Below are positions 28,136-49,838 of a stretch of DNA of 64,000 bases, piece by piece. A model generated the notes under the pieces. The model saw only the letters and a list, made by a program, of their open reading frames with translations, was not told the DNA's origin and did no database searches. The stretch spans positions 62,001-126,000 of the forward strand of contig NZ_BJNE01000005.1 in assembly GCF_006539525.1 (NCBI RefSeq). Direction: 5' to 3'. A program made the position numbers and the translations under genes. This DNA is from Glutamicibacter nicotianae. GTDB taxonomy: Bacteria > Actinomycetota > Actinomycetes > Actinomycetales > Micrococcaceae. Every line of letters begins with the position of its first letter. Position 1 is the first letter of the stretch.

Positions 28136-28159
28136 AATGGGTCAACCTTTGGTTGCGGC

Positions 28160-29876: not shown

Positions 29877-29909
29877 AGCGTAGAAACTTGAAGTGATGCA
29901 TGTCCAAGG
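29877..29909 (-). promoter_or_regulatory. Shared promoter-like element, copy at tctC
   Basis: Read leftwards: CTTGGACATGCATCAC, then TACGCT after a 19-base interval from TTGGAC (29907-29902 to 29882-29877). The same element occurs at 30869-30901 and 49807-49838. It lies about 85-115 nt upstream of the tctC ATG. Probably a sigma-70-type promoter with regulator contacts; the shared TTGGACA..GCATCAC exceeds what a -35 box needs. Confidence 0.55.
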
Positions 29910-29945
29910 TTGAATGTGCATAGAATGATTCCGGAAAGGTATCAA

Positions 29946-30836
29946 ATGTTTACTCTGGACCAGGCGCGTAGTTTCGTTGCGGTTGCCGAGGAGCTGCACT
30001 TCGGCCGGGCGGCAGAGCGGCTGAACATGACCCAGCCGCCGCTGAGCCGGCAGATCCAGAAACTAGAGCGCACCGTCGGGGTGGAACTGCTCGAGCGCGA
30101 CAACCGCCGAGTGGCCCTCACCGCGGCAGGCCACGCCTTCCTGCAGGATGCCCGGCGGCTGGTCGTGGCCGCCGAACGCGCCCCCGATAATGCCCGCCGC
30201 ATCGCCGCGGGCCAGCTGGGCGAACTGCGCATCGGCTTCACCGCGGCCTCGGGCTTCAGCCTGCTCGGCTCGCTGCTGGGGGAAATCTCCTCGCAAATGC
30301 CGCAGGTCCATCTGGAGCTGGCGGAAATGGTCACCGGCGAACAGGTCGACGCCCTGCTGGATGGCGACATCGACCTGGGCCTGGCGCGTCCGCCCTTCGA
30401 CGAGAACCTCTTCGAGTCCGCACTGCTGTTGACCGAGGGTCTTTATGTTGCGGTGCCGTCCGGCCACCGGCTGACCCGATTGCAGCGAGATGTCTTATTC
30501 GAGGACCTGCGCAACGAGCCCCTGATCATGCACTCCCCCACCAAGGCCCGCTACTTCTATGACCTGGTGGTGCGCCGCGTCGAGATCGAGCACAAGAACG
30601 TGCGCCATACCGTCAGCCAGGTGCTGACCATGATCGCGCTGGTCTCTGCCGGGCGAGGCATCGCCTTCGTCCCGGAGAGCGCCAAGCTGCTCGGCGTGGG
30701 CGGGGTCAGCTACCTGCGGCTGGGCGAGGTCGCCGACGATCCGGTGCAGCTGCACGCCATCTGGAGCAAGTCCTCGCGCAATCCCGCGCTGGGGCGGGTG
30801 GTATCGATCGTGCGCCACGCACTGCACGCCGAATGA
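29946..30836 (+). CDS. LysR-family regulator of sugar-acid genes
   Basis: A 296-aa regulator. The winged helix is at 1-60 (TLDQARSFVAVAEELHFGRA, AERLNMTQPPLSRQIQKLER); the remaining part is a two-lobed inducer domain (GELRIGFTAASGFSLLGSLL). ATG 29946 follows GGAAAGG and starts at the family position; ATG 29910 is earlier but unsupported. It lies between the leftward tct operon and the rightward glucarate genes, the normal arrangement for a LysR activator controlling both; glucarate or a pathway intermediate is the likely effector. It is a paralogue of the LysR protein at 48821-49771. Confidence 0.93.
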   Translation: MFTLDQARSFVAVAEELHFGRAAERLNMTQPPLSRQIQKLERTVGVELLERDNRRVALTAAGHAFLQDARRLVVAAERAPDNARRIAAGQLGELRIGFTAASGFSLLGSLLGEISSQMPQVHLELAEMVTGEQVDALLDGDIDLGLARPPFDENLFESALLLTEGLYVAVPSGHRLTRLQRDVLFEDLRNEPLIMHSPTKARYFYDLVVRRVEIEHKNVRHTVSQVLTMIALVSAGRGIAFVPESAKLLGVGGVSYLRLGEVADDPVQLHAIWSKSSRNPALGRVVSIVRHALHAE

Positions 30837-30868
30837 TGCGCGCTGGGTATCAAACAATACAAATATGG

Positions 30869-30901
30869 GCTTGGACAGGCATCACTACCGGTTCCTAGGC
30901 T
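30869..30901 (+). promoter_or_regulatory. Shared promoter-like element, copy at kdgD
   Basis: GCTTGGACAGGCATCACT, then TAGGCT at 30896-30901, 19 bases after TTGGAC (30871-30876). About 75-105 nt upstream of the kdgD ATG. GTAT-N6-ATAC (30847-30860) just upstream could be a LysR contact site. Confidence 0.6.
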
Positions 30902-30975
30902 GAGGGTAATACCAATGCACTACCCCCAGCTTTCCCGCCTCGCATGATGCGGGAACCCAGTCAAAGGAACGAATC

Positions 30976-31914
30976 ATGGCCCAGTACACCCCCGCCGAAC
31001 TTGCCGCCAAGCTCAAGGACGGCCTGCTGTCCTTCCCGGTGACCGCGTTTGACGCGAATCTGGAAATCGACGAGGCCGCGTACCGCAATCACCTGGCCTG
31101 GCAGTCCAGCTTCGACGTCGCTGGCCTGTTTGCCGCCGGCGGCACCGGCGAAGGCTTCACGCTGACCCCGGAAGAAGCAGCACGGGTAGTCCGCCTGGCG
31201 GTCGAGGAAGCGGGAACCAGCGTTCCCGTCCTTGCCTCGGCCGGCGGCTCCACCAAGCAGGCCATCCAGAATGCGCAGGATGCCGAGGCCGCGGGCGCCG
31301 AAGGCCTGCTGCTGCTGCCGCCATACCTGACCGAATGCGACCAGGAAGGCCTCTACCAGCACGTATCGGCCATCTGCTCCGCAACCAAGACCGGCGTGAT
31401 CGTGTACAACCGTGCCAACGCCATCTACTCGGCTGATACCGTCGCCCGGCTGGCAGACAACCACGAGAACTTCATCGGCTTCAAGGACGCGCTGGGCGAT
31501 ATCGAGCACCTGACCAAGGTGTACGCCAAGAACGGGGACCGCCTGTTCTACCTGGGCGGGCTGCCTACCGCCGAGACCTTCGCGCTGCCGCTGCTGCAGC
31601 TGGGCATGAGCACCTACTCCTCGGCCATGTACAACTTCGTTCCGGAATTCGCGCTGGACTTCTACAAGGACGTCCGCGCCCAGGACCTGCAGGCGGTCAA
31701 CGAGAAACTGAACCGCTTCGTACTTCCGTACCTGGAAATCCGCGACCGAGTCAAGGGCTATGGCGTGTCCATCGTCAAGGGCGGATTGAAGGCCATCGGC
31801 CGCGACTCCGGCTCGGTGCGCCCGCCGCTGCAGGATCTGACCGAGCAGGACCTGGCAGACCTGTCCGCGCTGATCCAGAAGGCAGGCATCGTTCCTGCCG
31901 GTGCAAGCCTCTAA
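30976..31914 (+). CDS. kdgD: 5-dehydro-4-deoxyglucarate dehydratase
   Basis: Converts 5-keto-4-deoxyglucarate to 2-oxoglutarate semialdehyde with loss of water and CO2. A 312-aa DapA-type barrel: GLFAAGGTGEGFTLTPEE carries the substrate-carboxylate loop, VIVYNRANAIYS the catalytic Tyr region, and GFKDALGDIEHL the Schiff-base Lys (Lys170). The phrase GGLPTAETFALPLLQLGMST and the C-terminal GYGVSIVKGGLKAIGRDSGS are specific to KdgD rather than other DapA relatives. First gene of the rightward kdgD-dehydrogenase-gudD operon. It can also take product from the galactarate dehydratase at 22451. Confidence 0.94.
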   Translation: MAQYTPAELAAKLKDGLLSFPVTAFDANLEIDEAAYRNHLAWQSSFDVAGLFAAGGTGEGFTLTPEEAARVVRLAVEEAGTSVPVLASAGGSTKQAIQNAQDAEAAGAEGLLLLPPYLTECDQEGLYQHVSAICSATKTGVIVYNRANAIYSADTVARLADNHENFIGFKDALGDIEHLTKVYAKNGDRLFYLGGLPTAETFALPLLQLGMSTYSSAMYNFVPEFALDFYKDVRAQDLQAVNEKLNRFVLPYLEIRDRVKGYGVSIVKGGLKAIGRDSGSVRPPLQDLTEQDLADLSALIQKAGIVPAGASL

Positions 31915-31963
31915 CGGGCATTCGCACTTCAGGCACACCAAGAATTCGACTCAGGAGTAATTC

Positions 31964-33565
31964 ATGAGCACCACAACGCAGAACCTGGCCGGCCAGTCCA
32001 TCCTTGCCGGAACCAGCACCGAAGGCAGCGGCCGGACGGTCAACGGCTACAACCCGGCGACCAACCAGCCGCTGGAACCTGCCTACAGCCTCATCGATGA
32101 GCAGCAGCTGAAGCTTGCCACCTCTGCCGCGGCCGAGGCCTTCGAATCCTTCCGCTGCCTGGAACCGGTGAAGCACGCTGACTTCCTGGACGCCATCGCG
32201 GAGAACATCGAGGCAGTGGGCACCGAACTGGTAGCCCGCGCCATGGCCGAGACCGGCCTGCCCGAGGCGCGCCTGACCGGCGAGCGCGGGCGTACCACCG
32301 GGCAGCTGCGGCTGTTCGCCCAGGTCATCCGCAAGGGCGACCAGCACGGCGTGCGCGTGGACCCGGCCCTGCCCGAGCGCACCCCGGCCCCGCGCGTGGA
32401 CATCCGACAGCGCAAGATCCCGGTAGGCCCGGTGGCGGTCTTCGGCGCATCGAACTTCCCGCTGGCCTTCTCCACCGCCGGCGGCGACACCGCTTCGGCG
32501 CTGGCTGCCGGCTGCCCGGTGGTCTTCAAGGCGCACAATGCCCATCCGGGCACCAGCGAAATCGTGGGACAGGCGATCACCAAGGCGGTCAAGGATGCCG
32601 GCCTGCATCCGGGAGTCTTCTCCCTGGTCTACGGCCCGGGTGCTTCCATCGGCCAGGCGCTGGTGAAGGATCCAGCCATCAAGGCCGTGGGCTTCACCGG
32701 TTCCCGCGCCGGCGGTACCGCACTGATGGCCGCCGCCGCTGCCCGCCCGGAACCCATCCCGGTGTACGCCGAGATGAGCTCCATCAACCCGGTCATCTTC
32801 TTCGACGGCGCACTGGCCGAGGACCCGGCAGCGCATGCCGCCGCCTACCTCGGATCGGTCACCGGTTCCTCGGGACAGCTGTGCACCGCACCGGGCCTGG
32901 TCTTCGTCCCCGAGGGCGAGGCTGGCGACGAATTTGTGCGCGCCATCAGCGGCCAGGCACCGGAGACTTCCGGGCAGACCATGCTCACCGAAGGAATCTA
33001 CCGCTCGTGGGTCAAGGGCACCGAGACCCTGTCCGCCCAGGAAGGCGTGAAGCTTGTAGGCCGTGGCACGGACGGGGCCACCGAGAACGCCCCGGCCCCG
33101 GTCGTCTACTCCGCCGGCATCAGCCAGCTGCTGGAGAACCCGGTGCTGCAGGACGAGATCTTCGGCGCCGCCTCGCTGGTCATCCGCTACGGCAGCGGCG
33201 AGGAACTGGCCACCGCGCTCTCCCGCCTGGAAGGACAGCTGACCGCAACGTTGCAGCTGACCGAGGCGGACCACGCCACCGCGGCCCAGGTCATTCCGAC
33301 CCTGGAGACCAAGGTGGGCCGCATCCTGGTCAATGGCTGGCCGACCGGTGTCGAGGTGGGCCATGCGATGGTCCACGGCGGCCCGTTCCCCGCCACTTCC
33401 GACCCGCGCACCACCTCGGTGGGCACCCTGGCCATCGAGCGCTTCCTGCGCCCGGTTGCCTACCAGAACTTCCCGGAGGCGCTCTTGCCCAACCCGATTG
33501 CGGCAGGCAACCCGTGGAACTTGACCCGCCGCATCGACGGCGTCCTGCAGGCGAAAGGCGAATAA
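31964..33565 (+). CDS. 2-oxoglutarate semialdehyde dehydrogenase
   Basis: Oxidises the semialdehyde formed by KdgD to 2-oxoglutarate with NAD(P)+. A 533-aa aldehyde dehydrogenase: GPVAVFGASNFPLAFSTAGG is the nucleotide-binding entry, VGFTGSRAGG the Rossmann Gly loop, VYAEMSSINPVIF includes the general-base Glu, and SSGQLCTAPGLVF the catalytic Cys (Cys307). The extended length and the GWPTGVEVGHAMVHGGPFPA region match the KGSADH group (2,5-dioxovalerate dehydrogenases) rather than generic enzymes. It lies between kdgD (49 nt) and gudD (3 nt) in a tight operon. Confidence 0.93.
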   Translation: MSTTTQNLAGQSILAGTSTEGSGRTVNGYNPATNQPLEPAYSLIDEQQLKLATSAAAEAFESFRCLEPVKHADFLDAIAENIEAVGTELVARAMAETGLPEARLTGERGRTTGQLRLFAQVIRKGDQHGVRVDPALPERTPAPRVDIRQRKIPVGPVAVFGASNFPLAFSTAGGDTASALAAGCPVVFKAHNAHPGTSEIVGQAITKAVKDAGLHPGVFSLVYGPGASIGQALVKDPAIKAVGFTGSRAGGTALMAAAAARPEPIPVYAEMSSINPVIFFDGALAEDPAAHAAAYLGSVTGSSGQLCTAPGLVFVPEGEAGDEFVRAISGQAPETSGQTMLTEGIYRSWVKGTETLSAQEGVKLVGRGTDGATENAPAPVVYSAGISQLLENPVLQDEIFGAASLVIRYGSGEELATALSRLEGQLTATLQLTEADHATAAQVIPTLETKVGRILVNGWPTGVEVGHAMVHGGPFPATSDPRTTSVGTLAIERFLRPVAYQNFPEALLPNPIAAGNPWNLTRRIDGVLQAKGE

Positions 33566-33568
33566 TCC

Positions 33569-34897
33569 ATGGCTGCACAACCCACCATTGCCTCGGTGAA
33601 GGTCATCCCGGTTGCCGGGCATGACTCCATGCTGCTGAACCTCTCCGGTGCGCACGGGCCGTTCTTCACCCGCAATATCGCCATCGTCACCGACTCCGAG
33701 GGTCGCACCGGCCTGGGCGAGGTGCCTGGCGGCGAGGCCATCCGCTCGACCATCGAGGAAGCCGGCGCACTGCTGGCCGGTGCCCCGGTCGCCACCTACC
33801 GTTCGCTGCTGCGCCAGGTCTCTGCCCGCTTCGCGGACCGCGACGCGGGCGGCCGCGGCGCGCAGACCTTCGATCTGCGCACCACCGTGCACGCGGTCAC
33901 CGCACTGGAATCGGCGCTGCTGGATCTGCACGGCCAGTTCCTCGGCGTGCCGGTGGCCGAGCTGCTCGGCGACGGGCAGCAGCGCGACGCGGTGCCGATG
34001 CTCGGCTACCTGTTCTACGTGGGCAACCCGGACACGACGGACCTGCCGTACCTGCGCGAACCGCAGGGCAAGGACGCCTGGGAGCGCCTGCGCCGCGAGG
34101 AAGCCATGACCCCTCAGGCCGTGGTGCGCCTGGCCGAGGCGGCGCAGGCCCGCTACGGATTCAAGGACTTCAAGCTCAAGGGCGGCGTCCAGGCAGGCGA
34201 CGCGGAAGTCGACGCGGTAATCGCATTGAAAGAACGTTTCCCTGACGCACGCATTACCCTGGATCCCAACGGCGGCTGGCTGCTCGAAGACGCCATCCGG
34301 CTTGGCAAGCGCATGCGCGCAGTGGTGGCCTACGCCGAGGATCCTTGCGGTCCCGAGGGCCGCTTCTCCGGGCGCGAGGTCATGAGCGAATTCCGCCGCG
34401 CGACGGGGCTGCCTACCGCGACGAACATGATTGCCACCGACTGGCGCGAAATGGCGCACGCGGTGCGCACCAATGCAGTGGACATCCCCCTGGCGGACCC
34501 GCACTTCTGGACCATGTCGGGTTCGGTGCGCGTTGCCCAGCTGTGCAACGAGTTCGGACTGACTTGGGGGTCGCACTCGAATAACCACTTCGATATCTCG
34601 CTGGCCATGTTCACCCAGGTCGGCGCCGCCGCTCCGGGCGAGATCACTGCGCTGGATACCCACTGGATCTGGCAGGATGGCCAGGGCCTGACCGAGGAGC
34701 CGTTGGTGATCCGGGACGGGGAGATCAAGGTTCCGCAGCGCTCCGGTCTGGGTGTCACCCTGGACATGGATCGCGTCGCCGAGGCCCATGAGCTGTATCT
34801 TGAGCATGGGCTGGGTTCGCGCGACGATTCGGTGTCCATGCAATACCTGATTCCCGGCTGGACCTTCGACTCGAAGAGTCCCGCGCTGGTTCGCTAA
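33569..34897 (+). CDS. gudD: Glucarate dehydratase
   Basis: Dehydrates D-glucarate (and L-idarate) to 5-keto-4-deoxyglucarate. The 442-aa enolase-superfamily protein has [20 protein letters not shown] (KxK catalytic motif), [19 protein letters not shown] and [20 protein letters not shown] (metal ligands), [32 protein letters not shown] and [15 protein letters not shown] (catalytic His). These match glucarate dehydratase rather than other subgroups. The usual length is about 445. It begins 3 nt after the dehydrogenase stop and ends the operon before a terminator. Confidence 0.95.
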
Positions 34898-34924
34898 TGG
34901 GTCGCGACGTAATCTGAATACTGC

Positions 34925-34975
34925 GCCGTGGACGGTTGAGTGGGCTTTTGCCGCTTAACCGTCCACGGCTTCGAT
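34925..34975 (+). terminator. Terminator after gudD
   Basis: GCCGTGGACGGTT (34925-34937) pairs with AACCGTCCACGGC (34957-34969), loop of 19 nt containing CTTTTG; tail TTCGATAAG is weak. It lies 27 nt past the gudD stop. Confidence 0.75.
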
Positions 34976-35019
34976 AAGCCCCGGTTATGGATTCACCAGT
35001 TCCGGGCGGGAAAGGCAAT

Positions 35020-35961
35020 ATGCAAGGAGTTCTACAGGGGTTCTCCGTTGTCTTGATCCTCATCGGCATCGGCCTGCTGACATCAATCGCCCTGCCCCGG
35101 AAACGCGCGGCGATTGCCCAGGGGCTGACCCCGCTGATCTTCTACATCACCAACCCCGCCCTGATGTTCACGCTGCTTGCCAGCACCGATCTGCGTGCGG
35201 TAGTCGGAGTCTTCACCCCGATAGCCTTGCTGGTTGCCGTGGTGACCGGCGCTGCCTATGTCTTGGTCGCGCGGCTGGTCTTCAAAACGCCAGGTCATCG
35301 GTTGCCGGCTGCTGCCATGTCAACGAGCTATGTGAATGCCGGAAACATCGGTGTGCCACTGGCACTGTACGCGGTGGGGAGCACCAGTCCCGTCGTGTCG
35401 GTGCTCATCGCGCAGTTGCTGATTATCGCTCCGGTCTACCTGTGCATGTTCGCGGTGCTCTCCCGCGCCAAATCCGGTGCCGCGGATAGCTCGCACGGCG
35501 CGAAAATGATCGTCAAATCCATTGCCAACCCGGTCACCATTGCGACCTTCCTCGGTGCGGTGTTCTCCTTCTTCGGTCTGGAACTGCCTGAAGTCATTCA
35601 TGCGCCGGTGCAAATGATCGGCGACGCGTCCATTCCCCTGCTGCTGATGTCCTTCGGCATGGCGCTCTACGGCCAACGCCCGTTTTCAGACAAGGACTTG
35701 AGAGGCGAAATCTACCTGGCGACCGCGTTCAAGGTGTTCTTCATGCCGTTGATCGCCTGGCTTGCAGCCCGCTTCGTTTTTGGCCTCTCCGGAATCGAAT
35801 TGCTCGGAGTGGTGATCATGGCGGCGCTTCCCACCGCGCAGAACGTCTTGCTGTTCGCCCAGCAATTCAAGCTGCCTGTCGCTGTGCCACGTGAAGTGGT
35901 CCTGGCAAGCACCTTGCTGACATTCCCCAGCGTACTGGTCATCGCCTTCCTGCTGAGCTAG
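35020..35961 (+). CDS. AEC-family (auxin efflux carrier type) transporter
   Basis: A 313-aa membrane protein with ten predicted helices in two inverted halves of five, each containing a broken helix (TPLIFYITNPALMFTLL in half one; VIMAALPTAQNVLLFAQQF in half two), the AEC/BASS-like fold. STSYVNAGNIGVPLALYAVG carries the conserved Asn/Gly pair of AEC proteins. Bacterial relatives move malate, malonate or other organic acids. ATG 35020 has an AAAGG site; the in-frame ATG at 34987 adds a Pro/Gly-rich tail. Separated from the glucarate operon by a terminator, so probably its own transcript. Substrate unknown. Confidence 0.88.
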   Translation: MQGVLQGFSVVLILIGIGLLTSIALPRKRAAIAQGLTPLIFYITNPALMFTLLASTDLRAVVGVFTPIALLVAVVTGAAYVLVARLVFKTPGHRLPAAAMSTSYVNAGNIGVPLALYAVGSTSPVVSVLIAQLLIIAPVYLCMFAVLSRAKSGAADSSHGAKMIVKSIANPVTIATFLGAVFSFFGLELPEVIHAPVQMIGDASIPLLLMSFGMALYGQRPFSDKDLRGEIYLATAFKVFFMPLIAWLAARFVFGLSGIELLGVVIMAALPTAQNVLLFAQQFKLPVAVPREVVLASTLLTFPSVLVIAFLLS

Positions 35962-35970
35962 GCACGCGCG

Positions 35971-36015: not shown

Positions 36016-36410
36016 TTCAAAGAATTAGCCTTGCTTCTCTGAAGTTCCTCGCGCAGGATCCAACGCTCGCAAAGCCGTGACCAGAAATCATCGACTACTG
36101 CCAAGTAGCTACTCTAGGCTGATGACATCATGCGAATAATTACGCGTTTGACTTAGTCAGCTCGGATCTGAAAATTTTGCGCTTGCTGAAGTCGCAGATA
36201 ACCATCATTCATTTTCCGAATCCACGAGTCAGCAGGGATCAACGCACAGAAATATGTGAAACACCTTTTTAGTACATGTACAAATATAAAAGATTTATTT
36301 GAGAAGTACTTCCTTTAGGAGTTGGAGAGCAGTTACGCTCCTACCGGCACACACCGCATCGATTGATCACCGACTTTTGTGCGCCCAAAAACCCTACAAG
36401 GAGAACATCA
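36016..36410. other. AT-rich leader region of the secreted protease
   Basis: About 395 nt with no gene, distinctly AT-richer than the rest, ending in the protease ribosome site. GTACATGTAC (36272-36281) and GAAGTACTTC (36303-36312) are perfect 10-bp palindromes sharing GTAC centres; the segment from 36230 to 36300 is likely to hold the promoter. No other element is clear. Confidence 0.5.
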
Positions 36411-38354: not shown

Positions 38355-38387
38355 CCCTGAATCTCCATCTGGTTACCAATTAAGTGC

Positions 38388-38430: not shown

Positions 38431-38449
38431 TCTAGCTCATTTGCGGTGC

Positions 38450-40580: not shown

Positions 40581-40606
40581 CCTGCCGGTCAAGCTTCATG
40601 CAGCGA

Positions 40607-41404: not shown

Positions 41405-41483
41405 AATTCAAAGCTACCAATCATTAGTTGAAGCGTCAACCTTTTGGAATCGTTTGCCGTTCCTGCCTCCAACCTACTGCGCA

Positions 41484-41522
41484 CTGGGGCCATCGTCCAT
41501 AACTCATGGACGAAGGCCCCAG
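41484..41522 (-). terminator. Hairpin after ABC ATPase gene
   Basis: CTGGGGCCATCGTCCAT pairs with ATGGACGAAGGCCCCAG with a single A-A mismatch and a 5-nt loop, 12 nt past the end of the gene at 41534. No U-tract follows leftwards. Confidence 0.6.
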
Positions 41523-41533
41523 CACCCGGGGCA

Positions 41534-42607
41534 CTAGGCTCCCCGGCCCCTCTGCCCGGACTCAACCACTTCCACCGGGAAGTGGCATTCGGTGCTGTGC
41601 AATCCTTGCACCGGACCATCGCCAGGCATCCCCAAACGAATAGTTCCTCCCTGCTCACGCACCCGCACTTGGGGCCGTTCGGCACTGCACACCGGCTGCG
41701 CCTTCCAGCACCGGGTACGGAAACGGCACCCCGAAGGCGGATCCAACGGCGAGGGCAGCTCACCGCGCAGCACAATCCGCCCGGCCGGCCGCTGCGCCGG
41801 ATCCAGCTTCGGCGATGCGGACAGCAACGAAGCAGTATACGGATGCAACGGCGAATCAAACACCTGCTCGGTCGTTCCGGTCTCGATGATCCTGCCCAGA
41901 TACATCACCGCCACCCGGTCAGTCACATGCCGCACCACCGACAAATCATGCGAAATGAACAGGTAGCTGACACCCAGCTCTTGCTGCAACTCGTTGAGCA
42001 GGTTCAGAACCTGGGCCTGCACCGAGAGGTCCAGCGCGGACACCGGCTCGTCCAGGATGATCAGCTCCGGGTTCAATGCCAATGCCCGTGCAATGCCCAA
42101 TCGCTGGCGCTGCCCTCCGGAGAACTCCTGCGGGGACTTGTCCGCATCGGTTCGGCGCAACCCCACCAAATCGAGCAGCTCATGTAGCCGCCGCTGCTTG
42201 GCAGCCCCGCGATACAGATCGCGGTGCGTAGCAAAGGGCTCGGTGATGATCTGCCCGGCGCTCATCCGCGGGTTCAGCGAGGCGAACGGGTCCTGGAAGA
42301 CCATCTGCACCCGGCGCCGCCACGTCAGCAAGTCCTTGCCGTGCAGGGCGAAAGGATCCTTGTCGTCAAAGAGCACCTGTCCCGCGTCCGGGGTTTCAAG
42401 CATCATCAAGGTGCGCGCCAGCGTGGACTTGCCGCACCCGGATTCGCCCACCAGGCCCAGGGTCTCGCCGCGCTTGATGCTCAGGTTGATGCCGTCCAGG
42501 GCGCGCAGTTCGCGGGAGCCCGACGCGCCGGCTGAAACGTGGAAGAACTTGCTCAGATCCTTGACCTGCAGCACGGTATCCGAGCGCTGGATAGTTGCGG
42601 TGCTCAT
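41534..42607 (-). CDS. Peptide/nickel-type ABC transporter ATPase, OppF/DppF family
   Basis: A 357-aa ATPase. Walker A is [15 protein letters not shown], the Q-loop MVFQDPFASLNPRMS, the signature EFSGGQRQRLGIARAL, Walker B LIILDEPVSALDLSVQAQ, then the H-loop FISHDLSVV. The C-terminal extension with PLDPPSGCRFRTRCWKAQPV and its Cys residues is the Opp/Dpp ATPase hallmark, binding an iron-sulfur cluster in relatives. ATG 42607 overlaps the stop of the partner ATPase gene (ATGA). A longer in-frame start at 42949 would lie inside that gene and is rejected. Last gene of the five-gene operon. Confidence 0.94.
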   Translation of the reverse strand: MSTATIQRSDTVLQVKDLSKFFHVSAGASGSRELRALDGINLSIKRGETLGLVGESGCGKSTLARTLMMLETPDAGQVLFDDKDPFALHGKDLLTWRRRVQMVFQDPFASLNPRMSAGQIITEPFATHRDLYRGAAKQRRLHELLDLVGLRRTDADKSPQEFSGGQRQRLGIARALALNPELIILDEPVSALDLSVQAQVLNLLNELQQELGVSYLFISHDLSVVRHVTDRVAVMYLGRIIETGTTEQVFDSPLHPYTASLLSASPKLDPAQRPAGRIVLRGELPSPLDPPSGCRFRTRCWKAQPVCSAERPQVRVREQGGTIRLGMPGDGPVQGLHSTECHFPVEVVESGQRGRGA

Positions 42608-43638
42608 GCGGGAATCTCCTTCTCGGTGGAGCCGGTTTGGCTGACGGTGGCGTGCGGCACCTGCTCGGCGAAGTGGCAGGCTGCCCGTTGGCCCGGACCG
42701 GTTTCCCGCAACGCCGGGCGTTCTGCCCGGCACAGCTCTGAGGCAAGCGGGCAGCGGTCCTGGTAGACGCACCCGGCGGGGATGCGGCTGAGCTCCGGCG
42801 GGCTGCCCGGGATCGAGGACAGCGCCTGCCCGCGCTGGCCTTGGCCGGGCACCGATTCCAGCAAGCCCTTGGTGTAAGGGTGGGTGGGGTTGGCGAAAAC
42901 CGTCTGCACGCTGCCCTGTTCCACTACATTGCCGGCATACATGATGCACACGTCATCGGCTTCTTCGGCCACTACCGCCAGGTCGTGGGTGATCAGCACC
43001 AGCGCCATGTCGGTTTCGGTACGCAGGCGCTTGAGCAACGCCATGATCTGCGCCTGCACTGTCACATCCAAGGCGGTGGTCGGCTCATCGGCAATCAGCA
43101 GGCGCGGGTTCAACGCCACCGCCATCGCGATCAGGATGCGCTGGCGCATTCCGCCGGAGAACTGGTGCGGATAGGAGTTCACCCGGGTTTCCGGCTCCGG
43201 GATTCCCACCCGGCGCATCAAATCCACGGCTTCGGCCTTGGCCTGCTTCTTGCCCATGCCGCGGTGGATCCTGAAGGCTTCGCCCAGTTGGGCGCCCACC
43301 GTATAGACCGGATTCAGCGCCGCCAGCGCATCCTGGAAGACGATACCCAGCCCGGGACTTGCCACCTGGCGGCGCCGTGAACTGCTCATCTGGTTCAAGT
43401 CCTCGCCCAGCAGCTCAGCGCTGCCGCCGGATACCTGGGCGACCGGGTCCAGCAGCCCGGCGATCGCCTTGGCAGTCATGGATTTGCCGCACCCGGACTC
43501 CCCCAGCAGGGCCAACGTGGTGCCGCTGCGGGCGGTGAACCCCACGTTGTTGACCACCCGCAAGGTGCCCTGCGGGGTACGGATATCAACATCCAGGTTC
43601 TGGACCTGCAGCACGGCCTGATCGGTGATGGTGCTCAT
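42604..43638 (-). CDS. Peptide/nickel-type ABC transporter ATPase, OppD/DppD family
   Basis: A 344-aa ATPase paired with 41534-42607. Walker A is [16 protein letters not shown], signature [16 protein letters not shown], Walker [20 protein letters not shown]-loop LITHDLAVV, and a C-terminal Cys-containing extension ([17 protein letters not shown]). It drives uptake through the two permeases. It overlaps the downstream ATPase and, by 4 nt, the upstream permease gene, giving fixed stoichiometry. The substrate class cannot be read from an ATPase. Confidence 0.94.
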
Positions 43639-44624
43639 TTTGCATCCTTTACTATGGTCTTCAGCGCCTTGGCCGAACGCTTATCCAAGGTCAAACGCCA
43701 CCGCTGGGCCGGGTCGGTGGCGATCCGCAGCCACGCGGCCAGCGCGTTGGCCGCCACCGCGGTGATCACGATGGCCAGGCCCGGCAGGATCGAGAGCCAC
43801 CACGCGGTCTGCAGATACTGGCGGCCCTGGGCCACCAGCAGACCCCAAGAAACTTCCGGCGGCTGGATCCCGATGCCCAGGAAGGACAGCGAGGATTCGG
43901 CCAGCATCACGAAACAGAATTCCAATGTCGCCAAGGTCAGCAGGGTTGGGGTGACCACCGGGATCACATGCCGGGCAATGATCGCATTGGGCTTGGTGCC
44001 GAAGGTGCGGGCGGCATCCACGAAAGTCCGCGACTGCAGCTCAGCGGCCTCGGCCCGGGCGGTACGCAGGTAGATCGGGATGCGGGTGATCGCCAGGATC
44101 AGCACGATATTCGCTGCCGAAGGGCTGAAGACGAACAGCACCACCACGGCGAGCAGCAGCGAGGGGAAGGACATGATCACATCGGCGATGCGCATCGAGA
44201 CGGTCTCGCGCCGGCCCCGGTGATAACCGGCCCACACACCCCACAGCGAGCCAATCAGCAAGGCGATCGCCACCGCCGGGACCGCAACCATCATCGTGGT
44301 GCGGGTGGCCACCACAATGCGGGCGAGCACCGAACGGCCCAGCGAATCCGAGCCCAGGATGTAGGCCCACCCGTTGGCCGGGTCGAAGGGGGGCTTGTTC
44401 ATGAACATCAAATCCTGCTTGGTGGCCAGCTCGCCCATCAACGGCGGACCGAAGATCGCGGTCAGCGCCACCACTGCCAGGACTACGGCCGCTACGGTGG
44501 CGACCTTGTCGCGCAGCAGCAGGTTCAGCATGCTCGGCTTGCTGCCGCGCGCCAGCTTGGTCCGCGGTTGCTTGGCGTGCGGTTCCTCGGCTTGCGGGCC
44601 TTGGGGGTTCATCGTCTGCGTCAT
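43635..44624 (-). CDS. Peptide-type ABC transporter permease, OppC/DppC family
   Basis: A 329-aa membrane subunit. A Lys/Arg-rich cytoplasmic tail precedes helix 1 (TVAAVVLAVVALTAIFGPPL); the loop after it contains WAYILGSDSLGRSVLARIVV, the OppC_N to permease junction, and the EAA-like loop is FVDAARTFGTKPNAIIARHV. Five to six helices are predicted. It overlaps both neighbours by 4 nt. A C-terminal tail of about 30 residues (DPAQRWRLTLDKRSAKALKT) follows the last helix. Confidence 0.93.
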   Translation of the reverse strand: MTQTMNPQGPQAEEPHAKQPRTKLARGSKPSMLNLLLRDKVATVAAVVLAVVALTAIFGPPLMGELATKQDLMFMNKPPFDPANGWAYILGSDSLGRSVLARIVVATRTTMMVAVPAVAIALLIGSLWGVWAGYHRGRRETVSMRIADVIMSFPSLLLAVVVLFVFSPSAANIVLILAITRIPIYLRTARAEAAELQSRTFVDAARTFGTKPNAIIARHVIPVVTPTLLTLATLEFCFVMLAESSLSFLGIGIQPPEVSWGLLVAQGRQYLQTAWWLSILPGLAIVITAVAANALAAWLRIATDPAQRWRLTLDKRSAKALKTIVKDAK

Positions 44625-45664
44625 GGCAGGCTCCTTGTCAGCTCGTGCTCCGTGGCGTCGGCGCGCTCAGCGGCAACGGCCGGTGCCGGCTGCGACGGGC
44701 GATGCCGGGACGCATCGCGCCGGGCGCTGCGCCGCGCCCGCTTGCCGGCGCTGGGCCGCACCCTCGGGTCGAGCAGCGCGTAGCCGAGGTCGATCAGGAT
44801 GTTCAATGCGAAGATCGCCACCGCGGTGAGCAGCACGCAGGCCTGCAGCACCGCGAAATCGCGTTGCAGGATCGAATCGATCATCAGCTTGCCGATGCCC
44901 GGCCAGCCGAAGATGGTTTCCACCACCACGGCGCCATTGACCAGTCCCACGGTCAGGTCCCCGGCCACGGTCAATGCGGGAGCCGCGGCGTTGCGCAGCG
45001 CATGGCTGGCGATCACCCGGCGCTGGGTCGCGCCCTTGGAACGCGCCAGCTTGATATACGGTTCGGACAGGGCCGAGACCATGGCCCCGCGGATCACCTG
45101 CACCAGCGTGCCAAAGGGCCGCATCAGCAGCGTGGCCACCGGCAGGAACCAGGCGGCCGCCCCGACCACCCCGGAGGTCGGCACCCAGCCCAAGCTGATC
45201 GCAAAGACCCAGATGCCCACGATAGCCAGCCAGAAGTCCGGGATGGATGCGGCGATCATCGAGGTGAAGCTCGCAAAGCGGTCCAGCAGCCCGTTGGGCT
45301 TCAGCGCGGCAATCGAGCCGACCACCACTGCCAGCACGATGGCCAGCAGCATCGTCATCGCCGCCAGCTGCAGTGTTGCCGGGAAGGCGCGCAACGCCAT
45401 GGCTGCGGCGTCTTCCCCGGTGCGCATCGATGCGCCGAAGTCCAGGCGCAGCAGTCCGCCGAAATATTGGGCCATCTGCGCCCAGATCGGCTGGTCCAGG
45501 CCGTTGCGTGCAGCAAAGTCCTCGCGCATCGCCTCGGTCGCGTTCAGCGGCAGGTACAGTGCCGCCGGGTTGCCGGTCATGCGGGCCAGCGCGAAGACGC
45601 CGATGACTACGACGACCAGGGGCAGCGCGGAGGAGATAATCCTCTTTCGCAAATAGGTCAGCAT
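44621..45664 (-). CDS. Peptide-type ABC transporter permease, OppB/DppB family
   Basis: A 347-aa partner permease. TYLRKRIISSALPLVVVVIG is the first helix and the family start; the periplasmic loop carries FAARNGLDQPIWAQMAQYFG, and the EAA loop is YIKLARSKGATQRRVIASHA. ATG 45664 follows GAGG and fits the family start better than ATG 45682. Its last 40 residues are very rich in Arg/Ala/Pro, unusual for OppB; they end in a 4-nt overlap with the next permease gene. Confidence 0.92.
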   Translation of the reverse strand: MLTYLRKRIISSALPLVVVVIGVFALARMTGNPAALYLPLNATEAMREDFAARNGLDQPIWAQMAQYFGGLLRLDFGASMRTGEDAAAMALRAFPATLQLAAMTMLLAIVLAVVVGSIAALKPNGLLDRFASFTSMIAASIPDFWLAIVGIWVFAISLGWVPTSGVVGAAAWFLPVATLLMRPFGTLVQVIRGAMVSALSEPYIKLARSKGATQRRVIASHALRNAAAPALTVAGDLTVGLVNGAVVVETIFGWPGIGKLMIDSILQRDFAVLQACVLLTAVAIFALNILIDLGYALLDPRVRPSAGKRARRSARRDASRHRPSQPAPAVAAERADATEHELTRSLP

Positions 45665-45694
45665 CTCACATCCTCGTTTCACTCATGGCGGCGC

Positions 45695-47272
45695 CTACTT
45701 GCTGGAGACTTCGGCCAGGCGCAGCTCGTCGCCTGTCGAGGAATTCGGGGTGTAGTCGATATTCGCCGCGACCCCGAGCATGCCGGTCTGGTGGGCGATG
45801 TGCGCGAACTGCACCACCTCGTCGTTCTGGTACTTGAAGACCTTCTCGAAGGCCGCCTGGCGGTCTTCGCCGGTGGCGGCATCCGCGGTGGCAATCAGCT
45901 CGTCGAGCTCCTTGGTGCCAAAGGCCGACTGGGCGCCCTTGGTAGTCATGTACTGGTCCACGGTGAAGGCGGCGTCGCCGGCCTGGTTGCCGTGCTGGGT
46001 CATCAGCATGATCGCCCCGTCCTCATCGGTGGGGAACGGGCGGACCTGGTAGGTCAGGTGCTGGCTGGTCTCCAGCATCTTCAGGTTCACTGTCAGCCCG
46101 ACCTGGGAGAGCTGTTCCTGGATCACCTGGGCCAGCTCCTGGATCTTGGGGAACTGGGCGGTGCGCACGATCATGTTGATCGGGGCTGAGACGTCCTCGC
46201 CGGCGGCCTTGGCTTCTTCGACCAGCGCTTTGGCCTTCTCCGGGTTGTATTCCCAGACTGGCAGGTCTTCGCTGTGTCCCACCACGCCGGCGGGGACCAG
46301 CTGGGCGGCGGCCTTGTCGCGTCCGCCGTACAGCGAAGCGACAATGGATTCCTTGTCGATGGCGTAGTTGATGGCCCGGCGCACGCGCTCGTCGTTGAGC
46401 GGGGCTTTGTCATTGTGCATGCGCAGCGCCACGGTTTCGTTGTTCGGGTAGGTGACGCCCAGCTCGCCGATATTGTCTTCCGGGCTCAGGCCGGTGGCGA
46501 TATCCGCCTCGCCGGAGGTGATCATGGCCGCGCGGACGCTGCCTTCGGAGCGCCACTGGTAGTTGGCCTTGGCAAAGGACGGGGCTTCGCCCCAGTAATC
46601 GGCATAGGCGGAGACATCGATGGACTGCCCGGCTTTCCAGTCATCAATCTGGTAGGGGCCGGTGCCAATCGGTTCGCGCACCTTCTCGGTGGCCGAGGTT
46701 TCCTCCGGGACGACTTCCAGGAAGGACAGGCGCAATGGCAGGATCGGGTCCTTCTTCACCGCGGTGACTTCCAGGGTGTAGTCGTCCACGACCTTCAGCT
46801 TCAGGTCGTCGTCGCCGAAGACATAGCCTTCAACGTTGCAGCCCAGCTCGGAGTTGACCGCACGGTCAATGGTGGCGGCGGCATCGGCGGCGGTGAAGTC
46901 GGAGCCGTCATGGAATTTCACGCCCTCGCGCAGCTTCAGCGTCCAGGTCTGGTCATCGTCGCTGGACCACTCGGTGGCCAGTTTCGGCTCCAGCTCGCCG
47001 CTGGAAGGGTTGCGTTCGATCAGCGGCTCGGTGATGGTCGAGCGAACCACCACGCCGGTGCTGGTCAGGTTCGATTCGCAGGCTTCCAAGGTGGGCGGTT
47101 CCTGCTGCAGCACCACGCGCAGGGTGTCGCTGGCGGTGCCGGAGGCAGGTGCGCCGGCAGCCTGTTCCGAGTTGGCTACCGAGCAGCCTGACAGGGCGGT
47201 GGTGCCCAGCAGGGCGGAGGCGGCGACGGCCAGAGAGAGCCTGCGGGTGCGGTGGTGGTTGGTCAACATCAT
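45695..47272 (-). CDS. ABC solute-binding lipoprotein, family 5 (OppA/DppA type)
   Basis: A 525-aa exported lipoprotein. Signal peptide HRTRRLSLAVAASALLGTTA with lipobox LSGC (Cys about 30), then a family-5 binding fold: TEPLIERNPSSGELEPKLAT, KLREGVKFHDGSDFTAADAA, and VREPIGTGPYQIDDWK are the standard landmarks. The family binds peptides, nickel, opines, sugars or sugar acids, so peptide import is not assured. First gene of the leftward operon; divergent from a D-2-hydroxyacid dehydrogenase, which points to a small organic solute (inference). Confidence 0.92.
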   Translation of the reverse strand: MMLTNHHRTRRLSLAVAASALLGTTALSGCSVANSEQAAGAPASGTASDTLRVVLQQEPPTLEACESNLTSTGVVVRSTITEPLIERNPSSGELEPKLATEWSSDDDQTWTLKLREGVKFHDGSDFTAADAAATIDRAVNSELGCNVEGYVFGDDDLKLKVVDDYTLEVTAVKKDPILPLRLSFLEVVPEETSATEKVREPIGTGPYQIDDWKAGQSIDVSAYADYWGEAPSFAKANYQWRSEGSVRAAMITSGEADIATGLSPEDNIGELGVTYPNNETVALRMHNDKAPLNDERVRRAINYAIDKESIVASLYGGRDKAAAQLVPAGVVGHSEDLPVWEYNPEKAKALVEEAKAAGEDVSAPINMIVRTAQFPKIQELAQVIQEQLSQVGLTVNLKMLETSQHLTYQVRPFPTDEDGAIMLMTQHGNQAGDAAFTVDQYMTTKGAQSAFGTKELDELIATADAATGEDRQAAFEKVFKYQNDEVVQFAHIAHQTGMLGVAANIDYTPNSSTGDELRLAEVSSK

Positions 47273-47552
47273 TGTGATCCTTCGCGAAGAGTGATGGGTT
47301 CAGTGAGTGGAGCATCCGGCGTGGCAGGACTGCCGGCGTTGATTCAAAAGCTTTGACCGATGAACCCGCATGGTCAAGGGAAAACAGGTCCCTTCGGTGG
47401 CGCCCGGCGAGCGCCGCAGTGGCGATCCGCGCCTTTGGCAAATGTGACTTGCGCGACATTTCGGGGTTATTTGACGATCAATGCCTCAACAGCATTGATC
47501 CATCCAATCTGCGTGTTGGACGTGAATTGATTGGTCTTCCTAGGATGCTGGT

Positions 47553-48545
47553 ATGCCCACAAATACCAGCGCCATGACGCACTCAAAGAACTCCCCCATC
47601 ACCGGCGACGCCATTCTGCGCGTGGGACCGGTGAATCCAGAGGTGGCCCAGGCCCTGCAGGCCGACCTCGGCGCGCAGGTGCTGCCCGAGCCAGGCCCAG
47701 AACGCGAAGCACTGCTCGAGGAGCACGGAACGCAGATCCGCGTGGCCGTCTGTTCCGGACGCATCGGGGTGGACTCGGAGCTGATGCAGCGCCTGCCAAA
47801 TCTCGAGGCGATCATCAATTTCGGAGTGGGCTACGACGCCACCGATGTTGCCCAAGCCCAGGCCCGCGGCATCGTAGTCAGCAATACCCCGGACGTGCTG
47901 ACCGAGTGCGTGGCCGATACTGCGCTGGGACTCTACCTGTCGACGCTGCGCTCGCTCGGCGCTGCCGAACGCTTCCTGCGTGCGGGCGCCTGGGCTGCCG
48001 GAGAGAATTTCCCGCTGGCCACCCGGGCCAGCGGCACGAAGGTAGGCATCCTTGGCCTGGGCCGCATCGGCCAAGCAATCGCAAACCGCCTGGAAGCCTT
48101 TGGGTGTGAAATCCACTATCACAACCGCTCGGAAAAGCCCGATAGCCGTTATGCCTACCATCCCTCGGCCCTCGCCTTGGCTGAGGCCACCGATGTGCTG
48201 ATGATCGCCGCGGCCGGTGGATCCCAGTCCGCTGGGCTGGTGGACCGCGAGGTCATCGAAGCCGTCGGTCCGCGCGGATTCATCATCAACATTGCCCGCG
48301 GTTCGGTCATCGACGAACCAGCGCTGGTCCAGGCCCTGGCCAATAAGGACATTGCAGGGGCAGGGCTGGATGTTTTCACCAAGGAACCGAGCGTCCCCGC
48401 CGAACTGTTGAACCTGGACAATGTCGTGCTGCTGCCCCACGTGGGCAGCGGAACCCACGAAACCCGCGCCGACATGGCAGCCTTGGCCCTGGGCAATTTG
48501 CGCTCCTACCTAGAGGATCGCACGCTGCTCACTCCGATCTCCTGA
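47553..48545 (+). CDS. D-2-hydroxyacid dehydrogenase 1
   Basis: Reduces a 2-keto acid to a D-2-hydroxy acid, or the reverse, with NAD(P)H. A 330-aa protein with the catalytic domain split around a Rossmann fold: KVGILGLGRIGQAIANRLEA is the dinucleotide motif, NIARGSVIDEPALVQAL holds the catalytic Arg, AGLDVFTKEPSVP the Glu, and LPHVGSGTHETRADMA the His. FGVGYDATDVAQAQARGIVV is the usual substrate loop. Family members act on glyoxylate, hydroxypyruvate or 2-ketogluconate; this one is closest in look to that group. ATG 47553 has AGGA. It is divergent from the ABC operon. Confidence 0.92.
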   Translation: MPTNTSAMTHSKNSPITGDAILRVGPVNPEVAQALQADLGAQVLPEPGPEREALLEEHGTQIRVAVCSGRIGVDSELMQRLPNLEAIINFGVGYDATDVAQAQARGIVVSNTPDVLTECVADTALGLYLSTLRSLGAAERFLRAGAWAAGENFPLATRASGTKVGILGLGRIGQAIANRLEAFGCEIHYHNRSEKPDSRYAYHPSALALAEATDVLMIAAAGGSQSAGLVDREVIEAVGPRGFIINIARGSVIDEPALVQALANKDIAGAGLDVFTKEPSVPAELLNLDNVVLLPHVGSGTHETRADMAALALGNLRSYLEDRTLLTPIS

Positions 48546-48595
48546 TCGGATCCCCAGCTCGATGCCGGCCCACCGGCATCACCACTTCTGCCTAA

Positions 48596-48655
48596 GCGGC
48601 GACGAGCGGCCGATTTTGCCATGCAAGGCCGGCCGCTCGCCGCGGATTTTGGTAG
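48596..48655 (+). terminator. Imperfect hairpin after dehydrogenase 1
   Basis: GCGGCGACGAGCGGCC pairs with GGCCGCTCGCCGC, leaving CGA bulged; a GATTTTGG tail follows. About 50 nt past the stop. Weaker evidence than the other terminators here. Confidence 0.5.
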
Positions 48656-48820
48656 GAGAATCAACAACCTCCCAGCGCAGCGAACTTCGTTGGCATCCAG
48701 AGCAGAGATTGCTGAACCCGGCACAGCTCTCAAAAGCAGTGCGCTGGCACTGCTGCCGGCTGTTGCCGGGCGGGCCGCCTTCGTTCGCCGCCCCGGCTGG
48801 CAACTGGCGAAACCCGTTGC

Positions 48821-49771
48821 CTATTTCCCTGCGCTGCTGCCGTCACCCGCTTTCCGAGGGGTCGCATCATTCCCCTGCAATTCGGCCAGGTAGAGTTCGC
48901 GCAATCGCTGCGCCGCGGGATTCCCGGCCTCGGACTCCCACGCCAGGAAGATGTCCGAGTGGTTCAGCTCCTCCATCCCTCCCGGACCCACCAGCTCCTC
49001 GAAGACCACCCCCGGCGGGGCGAAGTCGCGGGCACTGGCTGGCACCAGGGAGACACCCAAGCCCACCGAGACCAGCGCCATCAGCGCTGGGATCTGGCTG
49101 GCCACCTGGGTGACCGTGGGGCTGACACCCACCGAATCAAACAGCCGCAGCACCAGATCGTAGAAGTAGCGCGCCTCGTGGGTGGAGTACATCATCAGCG
49201 GCAGGCCGACCAGTTCCTTGATCAGCACCCCCTTGCCGGTTTCCAGGTGGTGCCCGGCCGGCAGCGCGACGACCAGCCGGTCCTTCTTGACCAGGTGGGT
49301 TTGCACGCCCGGCCGGTGCACCGCCGGGCGCAGCAGCCCCAGGTCGATCTGTCCCTTGCTCAGCGCATCGAGCTGGTCGATGGATACACCCTCGCGCAGC
49401 ACCAGCGTGATCTCCGGCAGTTCGCGGGCCGCCAGCGCGAGCAGCCGCGGCAGCACCGACTGGCCGGCTACCGAGGTGTAGCCGAGGATCACGGTGCCCG
49501 ATTCCCCGGTGGCGACCTTGGAGACTTCCAAACTGGTTTTCTGGCACAGATCCAGGATGCGCCGCGCGTTGGGGAGCAGCACCTGTCCTGCCGCGGTCAG
49601 CGCCACCTGCCGCGAGGTGCGGGTGAACAGCTTGGCATCCAATTCGCGTTCCAGCAGCTGGATTTGCCGGCTGAGCGGGGGCTGGGTCATATTCAGCCGC
49701 TCCGCCGCGGCGCCGAAGTGCAGCTCCTCGGCCACGGCCACAAAAGATTCCAGCTGGATCAGCGAGAACAT
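48821..49771 (-). CDS. LysR-family regulator 2, paralogue of the glucarate-locus regulator
   Basis: A 316-aa regulator. The N-terminal 70 residues (QLESFVAVAEELHFGAAAER, LNMTQPPLSRQIQLLERELD) agree with the LysR protein at 29946 at most positions, including the recognition helix TQPPLSRQIQ, so both probably bind similar DNA. The inducer domain is more divergent, suggesting a different effector. ATG 49771 has GGAG at proper spacing; ATG 49828 is unsupported. Divergent from the glucarate-dehydratase-like gene, with a shared promoter element between. Confidence 0.93.
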   Translation of the reverse strand: MFSLIQLESFVAVAEELHFGAAAERLNMTQPPLSRQIQLLERELDAKLFTRTSRQVALTAAGQVLLPNARRILDLCQKTSLEVSKVATGESGTVILGYTSVAGQSVLPRLLALAARELPEITLVLREGVSIDQLDALSKGQIDLGLLRPAVHRPGVQTHLVKKDRLVVALPAGHHLETGKGVLIKELVGLPLMMYSTHEARYFYDLVLRLFDSVGVSPTVTQVASQIPALMALVSVGLGVSLVPASARDFAPPGVVFEELVGPGGMEELNHSDIFLAWESEAGNPAAQRLRELYLAELQGNDATPRKAGDGSSAGK

Positions 49772-49790
49772 CAATTCACTCCTTGAATTG
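49772..49790. promoter_or_regulatory. Possible LysR box overlapping its own start
   Basis: CAATTC, seven bases, GAATTG: a perfect inverted repeat directly upstream of the LysR 2 start codon, covering its ribosome site, and upstream of the -35 of the divergent dehydratase gene. Confidence 0.45.
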
Positions 49791-49806
49791 TTGGTTGCCA
49801 ATTTTA

Positions 49807-49838
49807 GCTTGGACAGGTATCGATTCACTTTCTAGGGT
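49807..49838 (+). promoter_or_regulatory. Shared promoter-like element, copy at dehydratase-like gene
   Basis: GCTTGGACAGGTATC, then TAGGGT at 49833-49838, 18 bases after TTGGAC (49809-49814). It matches the elements at 30869-30901 and, in reverse, 29877-29909. About 37-68 nt upstream of the ATG at 49875. Confidence 0.6.

Follow-up and report, generated by a model that had tools for sequence, protein, structure and literature searches.

Gene Content of the Locus

Our analysis concerns a 64,000-nucleotide stretch from the genome of the soil actinobacterium Glutamicibacter nicotianae (contig NZ_BJNE01000005.1, positions 62,001 to 126,000; hereafter the window), which carries two loci for the use of sugar acids, each with a gene for a LysR-type transcriptional regulator (LTTR). 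The original prediction made for this DNA described a 33-nt promoter-like element shared by three operons in these loci, and suggested cross-regulation by the two LysR proteins. The genes concerned are listed below in window coordinates.

23585-24361: GntR/FCD regulator gene, near gntP
24436..25794, minus strand: gntP, GntP-family permease (Pfam GntP_permease, 453 bits)
26217-26609, minus strand: universal-stress-protein-like gene usp (Pfam Usp), end of the tct operon (26217..29793)
26606-28135, minus strand: tctA (Pfam TctA)
28160-28744, minus strand: tctB (Pfam TctB)
28795-29793, minus strand: tctC (Pfam TctC)
29946..30836, plus strand: lysR1 (Pfam LysR_substrate, HTH_1), with the tctC operator on one side (divergent) and the kdgD operator downstream
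30976-31914, plus strand: kdgD (NCBIfam KdgD TIGR03249, 385 bits, above the cut-off of 374), in the kdgD operon (30976..35961: kdgD, aldehyde dehydrogenase, gudD, permease)
31964-33565, plus strand: aldehyde dehydrogenase of the kdgD operon
33569-34897, plus strand: gudD (TIGR03247, 791 bits, just under the cut-off of 829)
34987-35961, plus strand: permease with a Mem_trans domain, end of the kdgD operon
47553..48545, plus strand: 2-hydroxyacid dehydrogenase, glyoxylate/hydroxypyruvate-reductase-like (Pfam 2-Hacid_dh, 2-Hacid_dh_C)
48821..49771, minus strand: lysR2, paralogous LysR-type regulator, divergent from mle2
49875-51155, plus strand: mle2, enolase-superfamily dehydratase-like (Pfam MR_MLE_C)
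51149-52120, plus strand: 2-hydroxyacid dehydrogenase of the mle2 operon (49875..52120; Pfam 2-Hacid_dh_C)

Judged from this gene content, the likely theme of the five operons (gntP, tctC, kdgD, the dehydrogenase at 47553 and mle2) is the uptake and breakdown of hexaric acids. The top PDB matches of GudD are glucarate dehydratases (697 bits and below). Mle2 scores 278 bits with the glucarate dehydratase model TIGR03247 (cut-off 829), and its best PDB matches are 3vdg ("Probable glucarate dehydratase") and 3va8 ("PROBABLE DEHYDRATASE"), well above the entries named plainly glucarate dehydratase; by these scores, it is a more distant putative member of the dehydratase group of GudD. The aldehyde dehydrogenase, a candidate alpha-ketoglutarate semialdehyde dehydrogenase, falls far short of the cut-off of every specific NCBIfam model listed, and the NCBIfam matches of the dehydrogenase at 47553..48545 are all below the cut-offs as well. 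The gene order tctC-tctB-tctA-usp recurs in relatives, and the usp-like gene (26217-26609) was observed behind tctA in many of those fetched. TctABC has been predicted to take up galactarate and glucarate in Halomonas, with a regulator of the GntR family, according to the accessible part of that report (PMC5507952).

The Shared Element as Part of a Probable LysR-Type Operator

The tctC site (29907-29877, minus strand) reads TTGGACATGCATCACTTCAAGTTTCTACGCT, the kdgD site (30871-30901) reads TTGGACAGGCATCACTACCGGTTCCTAGGCT and the site of the dehydratase-like gene mle2 (49809-49838) reads TTGGACAGGTATCGATTCACTTTCTAGGGT; a reading of the window sequence confirmed the positions of all three. Between TTGGACA and the -10 hexamer lie 18 bases for tctC, 18 for kdgD and 17 for mle2, a small correction to the 18-19 given originally. 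The mle2 spacer (49809-49838) of 17 bases compares with 18 in the nine genus relatives examined, with TAnnnT taken as the -10 hexamer. The core TTGGACA-N17/18-TASGST has three exact matches in the whole 3.55-Mb genome, which are these three sites, against none for the reversed control; as the pattern was derived from the sites themselves, the informative part is the lack of a fourth match. The original prediction had named the presence of the pattern at many unrelated promoters as an argument against itself, and genome-wide the core occurs at these three sites only. An earlier whole-genome pattern with the spacer fixed at 18 misses the mle2 site.

The shorter motif TTGGACADGYATC also has three exact matches genome-wide, against one for its reversed control. 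With up to three mismatches it is too loose to inform, and in the window it showed no enrichment (48 found against 54 expected). Across the phylum it matches exactly in 35 of 396 genomes, the own genome included, and the reversed control matches at least as often, as judged by eye. Since this motif is useful only near home, a longer profile was used instead, which relied on sequence only, covered 85 positions and was built from 27 of 34 sites, with the gntP and dehydrogenase sites kept out of the training.

The profile recovered the three founding sites in the genome (E 2.6e-19, 6.0e-19, and 4.8e-13) and gave one further match, upstream of gntP (E 3.1e-4); no other site was listed up to E 10 among the 150 of 542 first-look candidates that were scored. 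A search of the window with the filters off revealed a fifth site, upstream of the dehydrogenase at 47553 (11 bits, E 0.016; next match E 1.2). The element is therefore carried by the three operons first named and by at least two more. The five operators, each given as the whole element followed by its parts, are as follows.

25911..25976, minus strand: gntP operator/promoter (fourth; whole-genome profile match); ATGC-N7-GTAT 25962-25976, ATGC 25952-25955, TTGGACG 25935-25941, -10 TAACGT 25911-25916
29877..29942, minus strand: tctCBA-usp operator/promoter; ATAC-N7-GAAT 29928-29942, ATGC 29918-29921, TTGGACATGCATC 29895-29907, -10 TACGCT 29877-29882
30836..30901, plus strand: kdgD-aldh-gudD-permease operator/promoter; ATGC-N7-GTAT 30836-30850, ATAC 30857-30860, TTGGACAGGCATC 30871-30883, -10 TAGGCT 30896-30901
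47481..47546, plus strand: 2-hydroxyacid dehydrogenase operator/promoter (fifth; window profile match); ATGC-N7-GCAT 47481-47495, ATCC 47502-47505, TTGGACG 47516-47522, GAAT 47524-47527, -10 TAGGAT 47541-47546
49774..49838, plus strand: mle2 operon operator/promoter; ATTC-N7-GAAT 49774-49788, TTGC 49795-49798, TTGGACAGGTATC 49809-49821, -10 TAGGGT 49833-49838

The cluster was taken from 11 other genomes of the genus, and 12 kdgD, 12 tctC, and 10 mle2 upstream regions were aligned on TTGGACA; alignment positions such as -35 or -14 are counted from the first T of TTGGAC. The three promoters have a common layout at identical distances, in which ATNC-N7-GNAT lies 20 bp upstream of TTGGACA, a half-site nTnC occupies -14 to -11, and CTTGGACA-n-GnAT is followed by TAnnnT. 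In register, the three operons agree at 21 columns, each conserved to at least 90% inside every operon and with the same base in all three (12 congeneric genomes); 12,222 shifts out of register gave 0.83 such columns on average and never more than 8. The 21 columns include -34 T, -32 C, -24 G, -22 A, -21 T, -13 T, and -11 C, all upstream of the core promoter, and most of the positions between the conserved ones differ among the three promoters. Within the genus, TTGGACADGYATC is exact at the tctC operator of 12/12 aligned genomes; the kdgD operator is present in 12/12, with one change within this motif in L042 and two in L043, and the mle2 operator in all ten genomes found with the gene, the window's included. 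Orthologous genes in relatives are again accompanied by the tctC and kdgD sites, in which most spacer bases vary freely.

The same arrangement extends to all five sites of the window: ATNC-N7-GNAT occupies -35 to -21 and the middle half-site lies at -14 in each of them, and the GNAT half-site in the spacer is found in four and missing at gntP. The -10 hexamer also keeps its position, apart from a shift of one base in mle2, and relatives show the same arrangement. In order, the control region of about 67 bases common to the five neighboring operons consists of ATRC-N7-GNAT, an ATRC-like half-site, TTGGAC-A/G-n-GYATC overlapping the -35 box and the spacer, and TAnnnT. By its pattern, ATRC-N7-GNAT is the T-N11-A dyad of LTTRs. 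Relative to a start read from the -10 hexamer, it would lie at about -72 to -58, with a predicted center near -65; for the final conserved GYATC, the corresponding span would be about -29 to -25. The similarity is thus wider than a core promoter, as originally noticed, with conserved columns in the spacer and upstream of the -35 box. The 33-nt element is shared and specific, but is only part of a longer LTTR operator that reaches about 35 bp upstream of TTGGACA. We consider it quite probable (roughly 0.85) that the element is the promoter-proximal half of a fixed-geometry LTTR operator serving one sugar-acid regulon.

The geometry of the gntP site is the same in 8/8 distinct gntP upstream regions of the fetched loci; all eight read TTGGACG and have no GYATC half-site in the spacer. 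That of the dehydrogenase site is the same in 11/12 distinct upstream regions, and four of these 11 come from outside the genus. The distance of 38 bases from TTGGAC to the aligned dehydrogenase start recurs in six of the seven genus sequences, counting that of the window. In this promoter, the -10 hexamer TAGGAT ends 7 nt before the ATG (window 47541-47555), and the mRNA may be leaderless.

The 7-base centers of the tctC (29928-29942) and mle2 (49774-49788) recognition sites were also seen to resemble the Shine-Dalgarno sequences of lysR1 and lysR2, reading GGAAAGG-like (tctC) and AAGGAGT (mle2) on the other strand. Part of the conservation of these centers may therefore serve translation.

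Two Paralogous LysR Regulators

The neighboring regulators have the features expected for such an operator: lysR1 is divergent from tctC, lysR2 is divergent from mle2, and the HTH_1 and LysR_substrate domains are present. LysR1 and LysR2 are identical at 124 of 298 aligned positions. Among the 19 LysR helix-turn-helix (HTH) domains found in the genome, the recognition helix NMTQPPLSRQIQ is common to these two proteins only; their HTH domains share 46 of 63 residues, while the next best in the genome shares 33 of 63. The original prediction was right in naming two paralogs with nearly the same recognition helix and in tying the element to them, as sites lie beside both lysR1 and lysR2 and these are each other's closest paralogs.

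Over the whole protein, the best solved matches of LysR1 are BenM and CatM, and every letter of the BenM recognition helix QPPLSRQIQ is matched in the alignment. For the HTH alone, the PDB entries 5xxp and 1ixc, named only "LysR-type regulatory protein" and presumably both CbnR, score above BenM. With the NCBIfam BenM and CatM models, LysR1 and LysR2 reach 125-144 bits against cut-offs of 580-600. On these comparisons, the two proteins appear to work like BenM and CatM but fall outside both NCBIfam families.

A tree was built from 72 LysR rows; 19 of them group as the LysR2 clade (support 100/100) and 47 as the LysR1-type clade (support 99/93). The sample was picked via profile hits, and some rows gave long-branch warnings. 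All 19 lysR2 genomes of the tree also carry a LysR1-clade gene (deep-branching in G066), and none has lysR2 without one. The tree thus places the split of LysR1 and LysR2 before the genera sampled. This age bears on the idea that the sites are alike merely through a recent duplication of a promoter together with the paralogous lysR genes. The two genes are indeed paralogs, each with a divergent promoter, but the split is old, the kdgD, gntP, and dehydrogenase promoters are not divergent lysR promoters, and the bases between the conserved positions mostly differ between operons, which makes such an origin extremely improbable.

Distribution of the Operator and the Cluster

Within the genus, two sites at E <= 1e-13 were found in 12/12 genomes with a lysR1 ortholog and in 0/6 without it; 11 of these 12 supplied training sequences to the profile, so the presence half of this result is partly by construction. 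Among the six genomes without lysR1, G005 has one match at E 5e-4 and G001 one at 0.027. The weak match in G005 was treated as due to chance, as no relative of the cluster genes lies within 3 kb around it.

The absence of strong sites from the genomes without lysR1 is difficult to reconcile with the element being a mere sigma-factor promoter type, housekeeping or alternative, with spacer similarity by chance. TTGGAC-N18/19-TAnnnT does resemble a primary-sigma promoter, and the -10 hexamers are ordinary; nevertheless, the core has no other copy in the genome, and the conservation extends 35 bp upstream of the -35 box, through the T-N11-A dyad, and into the spacer. We regard this explanation as scarcely credible.

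In 9 of the 11 fetched relatives, tctABC-lysR1-kdgD-aldh-gudD-permease(s)-lysR2-mle2-dehydrogenase is contiguous, with about 5-7 kb between the lysR genes. The other two, G011 and G002, have no lysR2 or mle2 in the stretch fetched and no lysR2 ortholog among the genome-wide LysR matches. The separation into two loci 20 kb apart, true of the window, thus gives way to one contiguous cluster in most of these relatives. The window block between the LysR modules (36363-48545) holds a subtilase, a lactate permease, an Opp-type ABC transporter, and the hydroxyacid dehydrogenase, and the gene orders make a local rearrangement the best reading of the 20-kb gap. In G012, the dehydrogenase and a solute-binding gene are found beyond the tct operon instead.

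The search of related genomes suggested by the original prediction shows that the operator recurs well beyond the genus. Profile matches occur in 120 of the 395 genomes of the family, in 17 of 32 genera (own and training genomes included), and in 37 of the 297 genomes of the order, 30 of them counted outside the family, in eight families. Named relatives from the public scan include Arthrobacter sp. MYb213, MYb214, and S41 and Glutamicibacter sp. JC586. In the four out-of-family loci that were examined the site precedes kdgD (4/4), and in two of these four a LysR1 relative (53% identical) lies within 3 kb. In G189, two tandem same-strand operators about 1.6 kb apart were observed between lysR1 and kdgD (L171 3487-5212).

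Another regulator might own the element, such as the GntR/FCD protein encoded at 23585-24361, whose gene lies close to gntP in the window and close to the tct operon in other members of the genus; the Halomonas regulator GguR, a GntR-family protein, is the predicted galactarate/glucarate regulator beside TctABC, as far as the available text of PMC5507952 goes. In other genera, however, the sites usually adjoin lysR1 or lysR2 (the presence of GntR/FCD genes there was checked in few loci only), and the dyad is of the LTTR T-N11-A type with BenM-like arms. Such ownership is very unlikely.

Probable Assignment of the Operators to LysR1 and LysR2

The base at -14 separates the operators by operon. 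It is A at 47/47 kdgD and 38/38 tctC sites (85/85 together), and T or G at 18/18 mle2 sites. Of the 77 rows of sites in other genera, the count leaves out the mle2 site of G112, which has too many anchor mismatches and has G, as well as four sites without an identified downstream gene (all A), two gntP rows, and one dehydrogenase row; by eye, the base is A in 8/8 gntP and 11/11 dehydrogenase sites. The class difference is kept across several genera, and as far as the alignments go, two operator classes are kept distinct at this base.

Two rearranged genomes are informative. In G112, tctC lies directly downstream of lysR2 with the site between them and lysR1 about 11 kb away, and the site is still of the A class. 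In G759, the tct operon continues from usp into mle2 and is preceded by an A-class site, and no LysR2-clade gene is among the matches of this genome at E <= 1e-30. Taken together with the split at -14, these cases lead us to see LysR1 as the most likely regulator of four operons (gntP, tctC, kdgD, and dehydrogenase) and LysR2 as that of the mle2 operon; some cross-binding of the two proteins is plausible.

True cross-regulation, with both proteins binding every operator and two inducers being integrated, as by BenM and CatM in Acinetobacter, is possible, though in our judgment unlikely. The identity of the recognition helices over NMTQPPLSRQIQ, the operator geometry and TTGGACA-GYATC core common to both classes, and the occurrence of lysR2 only alongside a LysR1-clade gene would all be expected from it, and the positions of the tctC site of G112 and of mle2 in G759 may be taken in its favor. 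BenM and CatM provide a precedent, as they bind the same regions and control many of the same genes, according to the part of PMC6628147 available, and the accessible portion of PMC6449761 names motif similarity among related LysR factors as a basis for cross-regulation. The division at -14, however, is complete across several genera, and the tctC site of G112 has stayed in the LysR1 class even beside lysR2. A further proposal, which we regard as speculative, is that the LysR paralogs with the same helix read one operator design built into the -35 box and the spacer (TTGGAC-A/G-n-GYATC) and are kept apart, or cross-talk, mainly via the base at -14.

Several observations weigh against a regulon of this form or against parts of it. 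The assignment of each LysR to its sites rests on proximity and on base -14, and since all mle2 sites share one origin, the difference at -14 may be partly inherited. All start-relative positions were read off the -10 hexamer and are thus predicted. The genome search, which scored 150 of the 542 first-look candidates, missed the dehydrogenase site, so weak sites elsewhere may escape it. The gntP site was not listed for G002, G010, and G012 in the genus profile search (G012 has no gntP in the stretch fetched) and lacks the GYATC half-site, and the dehydrogenase upstream region of G066 has no site. Two of the four out-of-family kdgD sites have no LysR1 relative in the 3 kb examined, and G050, G066, and G166 keep the kdgD site without an adjacent lysR1; a LysR1-like gene (55-58%) was found about 8 kb off in G050, on another contig in G066, and about 6 kb off in G166.

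The genomes G066 and G166 were considered as cases in which LysR2 alone runs kdgD, and were rejected, as each has a LysR1-like gene at 57-58%; a LysR2-clade gene was not found in G166. In the latter genome (L239 10375-14245), kdgD, the aldehyde dehydrogenase, and the permease stand behind the kdgD operator, and gudD matches over only 43 residues.

Proposed Mechanism and Comparison with Known Systems

For a single LTTR-operated regulon, the following mechanism can be suggested. A dimer of LysR1 (or LysR2) would hold the ATRC-N7-GNAT dyad, the recognition site (RBS, about -72 to -58), and the other half of the tetramer, a second dimer, would bind near the -35 box. Without inducer, the second dimer would sit on the GYATC half-site in the spacer between -35 and -10, and the promoter would be blocked. 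With inducer, which is probably a hexaric acid or its dehydration product, the second dimer would move to the ATRC half-site at -14, about 11-22 bp farther upstream, and aid RNA polymerase on a -35 box (TTGGAC) that is presumably poor by itself. The five-operon cluster would probably turn on together. Each lysR gene would also be autoregulated, since its Shine-Dalgarno region is overlapped by a recognition site (that of tctC for lysR1, that of mle2 for lysR2). Because gntP lacks the GYATC half-site, the repression step cannot be general, and its operator suggests activation without such a step.

This scheme resembles that of BenM and CatM at benA and catB of Acinetobacter, for which the accessible part of PMC6628147 gives ATAC-N7-GTAT as site 1, with sites 2 and 3, towards the promoter, slightly off consensus. 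The likeness covers the T-N11-A site 1, the off-consensus sites, and the paralogous regulators with similar DNA-binding domains. It extends to the recognition-helix letters QPPLSRQIQ, which are the same in BenM and LysR1. The arms of the present sites are mostly ATRC/ATTC and GTAT/GCAT/GAAT, and the exact ATAC-N7-GTAT occurs at some kdgD sites outside the genus and at none in the window. The Acinetobacter system differs in belonging to another phylum and an aromatics pathway, and both of its regulators were shown to bind the same DNA. Unlike in BenM/CatM, one operator design, the nearly invariant TTGGAC included, serves five operons here.

The promoter controlled by the LTTR BhbR1 in Pigmentiphaga kullae is similar as well. 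In the available text of PMC12016517, BhbR1 protects -22 to -75, with an RBS dyad near -65 and a putative weak activation site (ABS) over the -35 box from which binding shifts upstream with inducer; the conserved span here is predicted at about -72 to -25. That system serves aromatic catabolism, and its companion regulator BhbR2 binds another kind of palindrome (same source, in the part available). The general RBS/ABS, sliding-dimer model for LTTRs is summarized in the accessible text of PMC12609908. The GguR regulon of Halomonas shares with the present one the predicted TctABC uptake of galactarate and glucarate beside catabolic genes, but its regulator is of the GntR family, not a LysR protein (PMC5507952, as far as available).

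Implications for Hexaric-Acid Use

No report of a LysR glucarate regulon or of this motif in Arthrobacter or Glutamicibacter was found in the literature searched, which excludes most subscription papers and all preprints. The regulon appears to be new, and its operator is of the ordinary LTTR kind, with a predicted mechanism that follows textbook LTTR logic. The regulon is larger, and the two loci are more nearly one, than was seen at first.

Overall, our analysis provides a testable regulon for hexaric-acid use in this family and in several related ones, and assigns the dehydratase (mle2) locus to the same physiology as the glucarate locus. Paralogous regulators with identical helix letters, together with the naturally rearranged neighbors in G112 and G759, make it a good system for studying how LysR paralogs stay apart. 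If the tentative role of base -14 is correct, a single base position would set regulon membership and would let operons change their master, and tctC in G112 and mle2 in G759 seem to have switched master or to have begun to do so.

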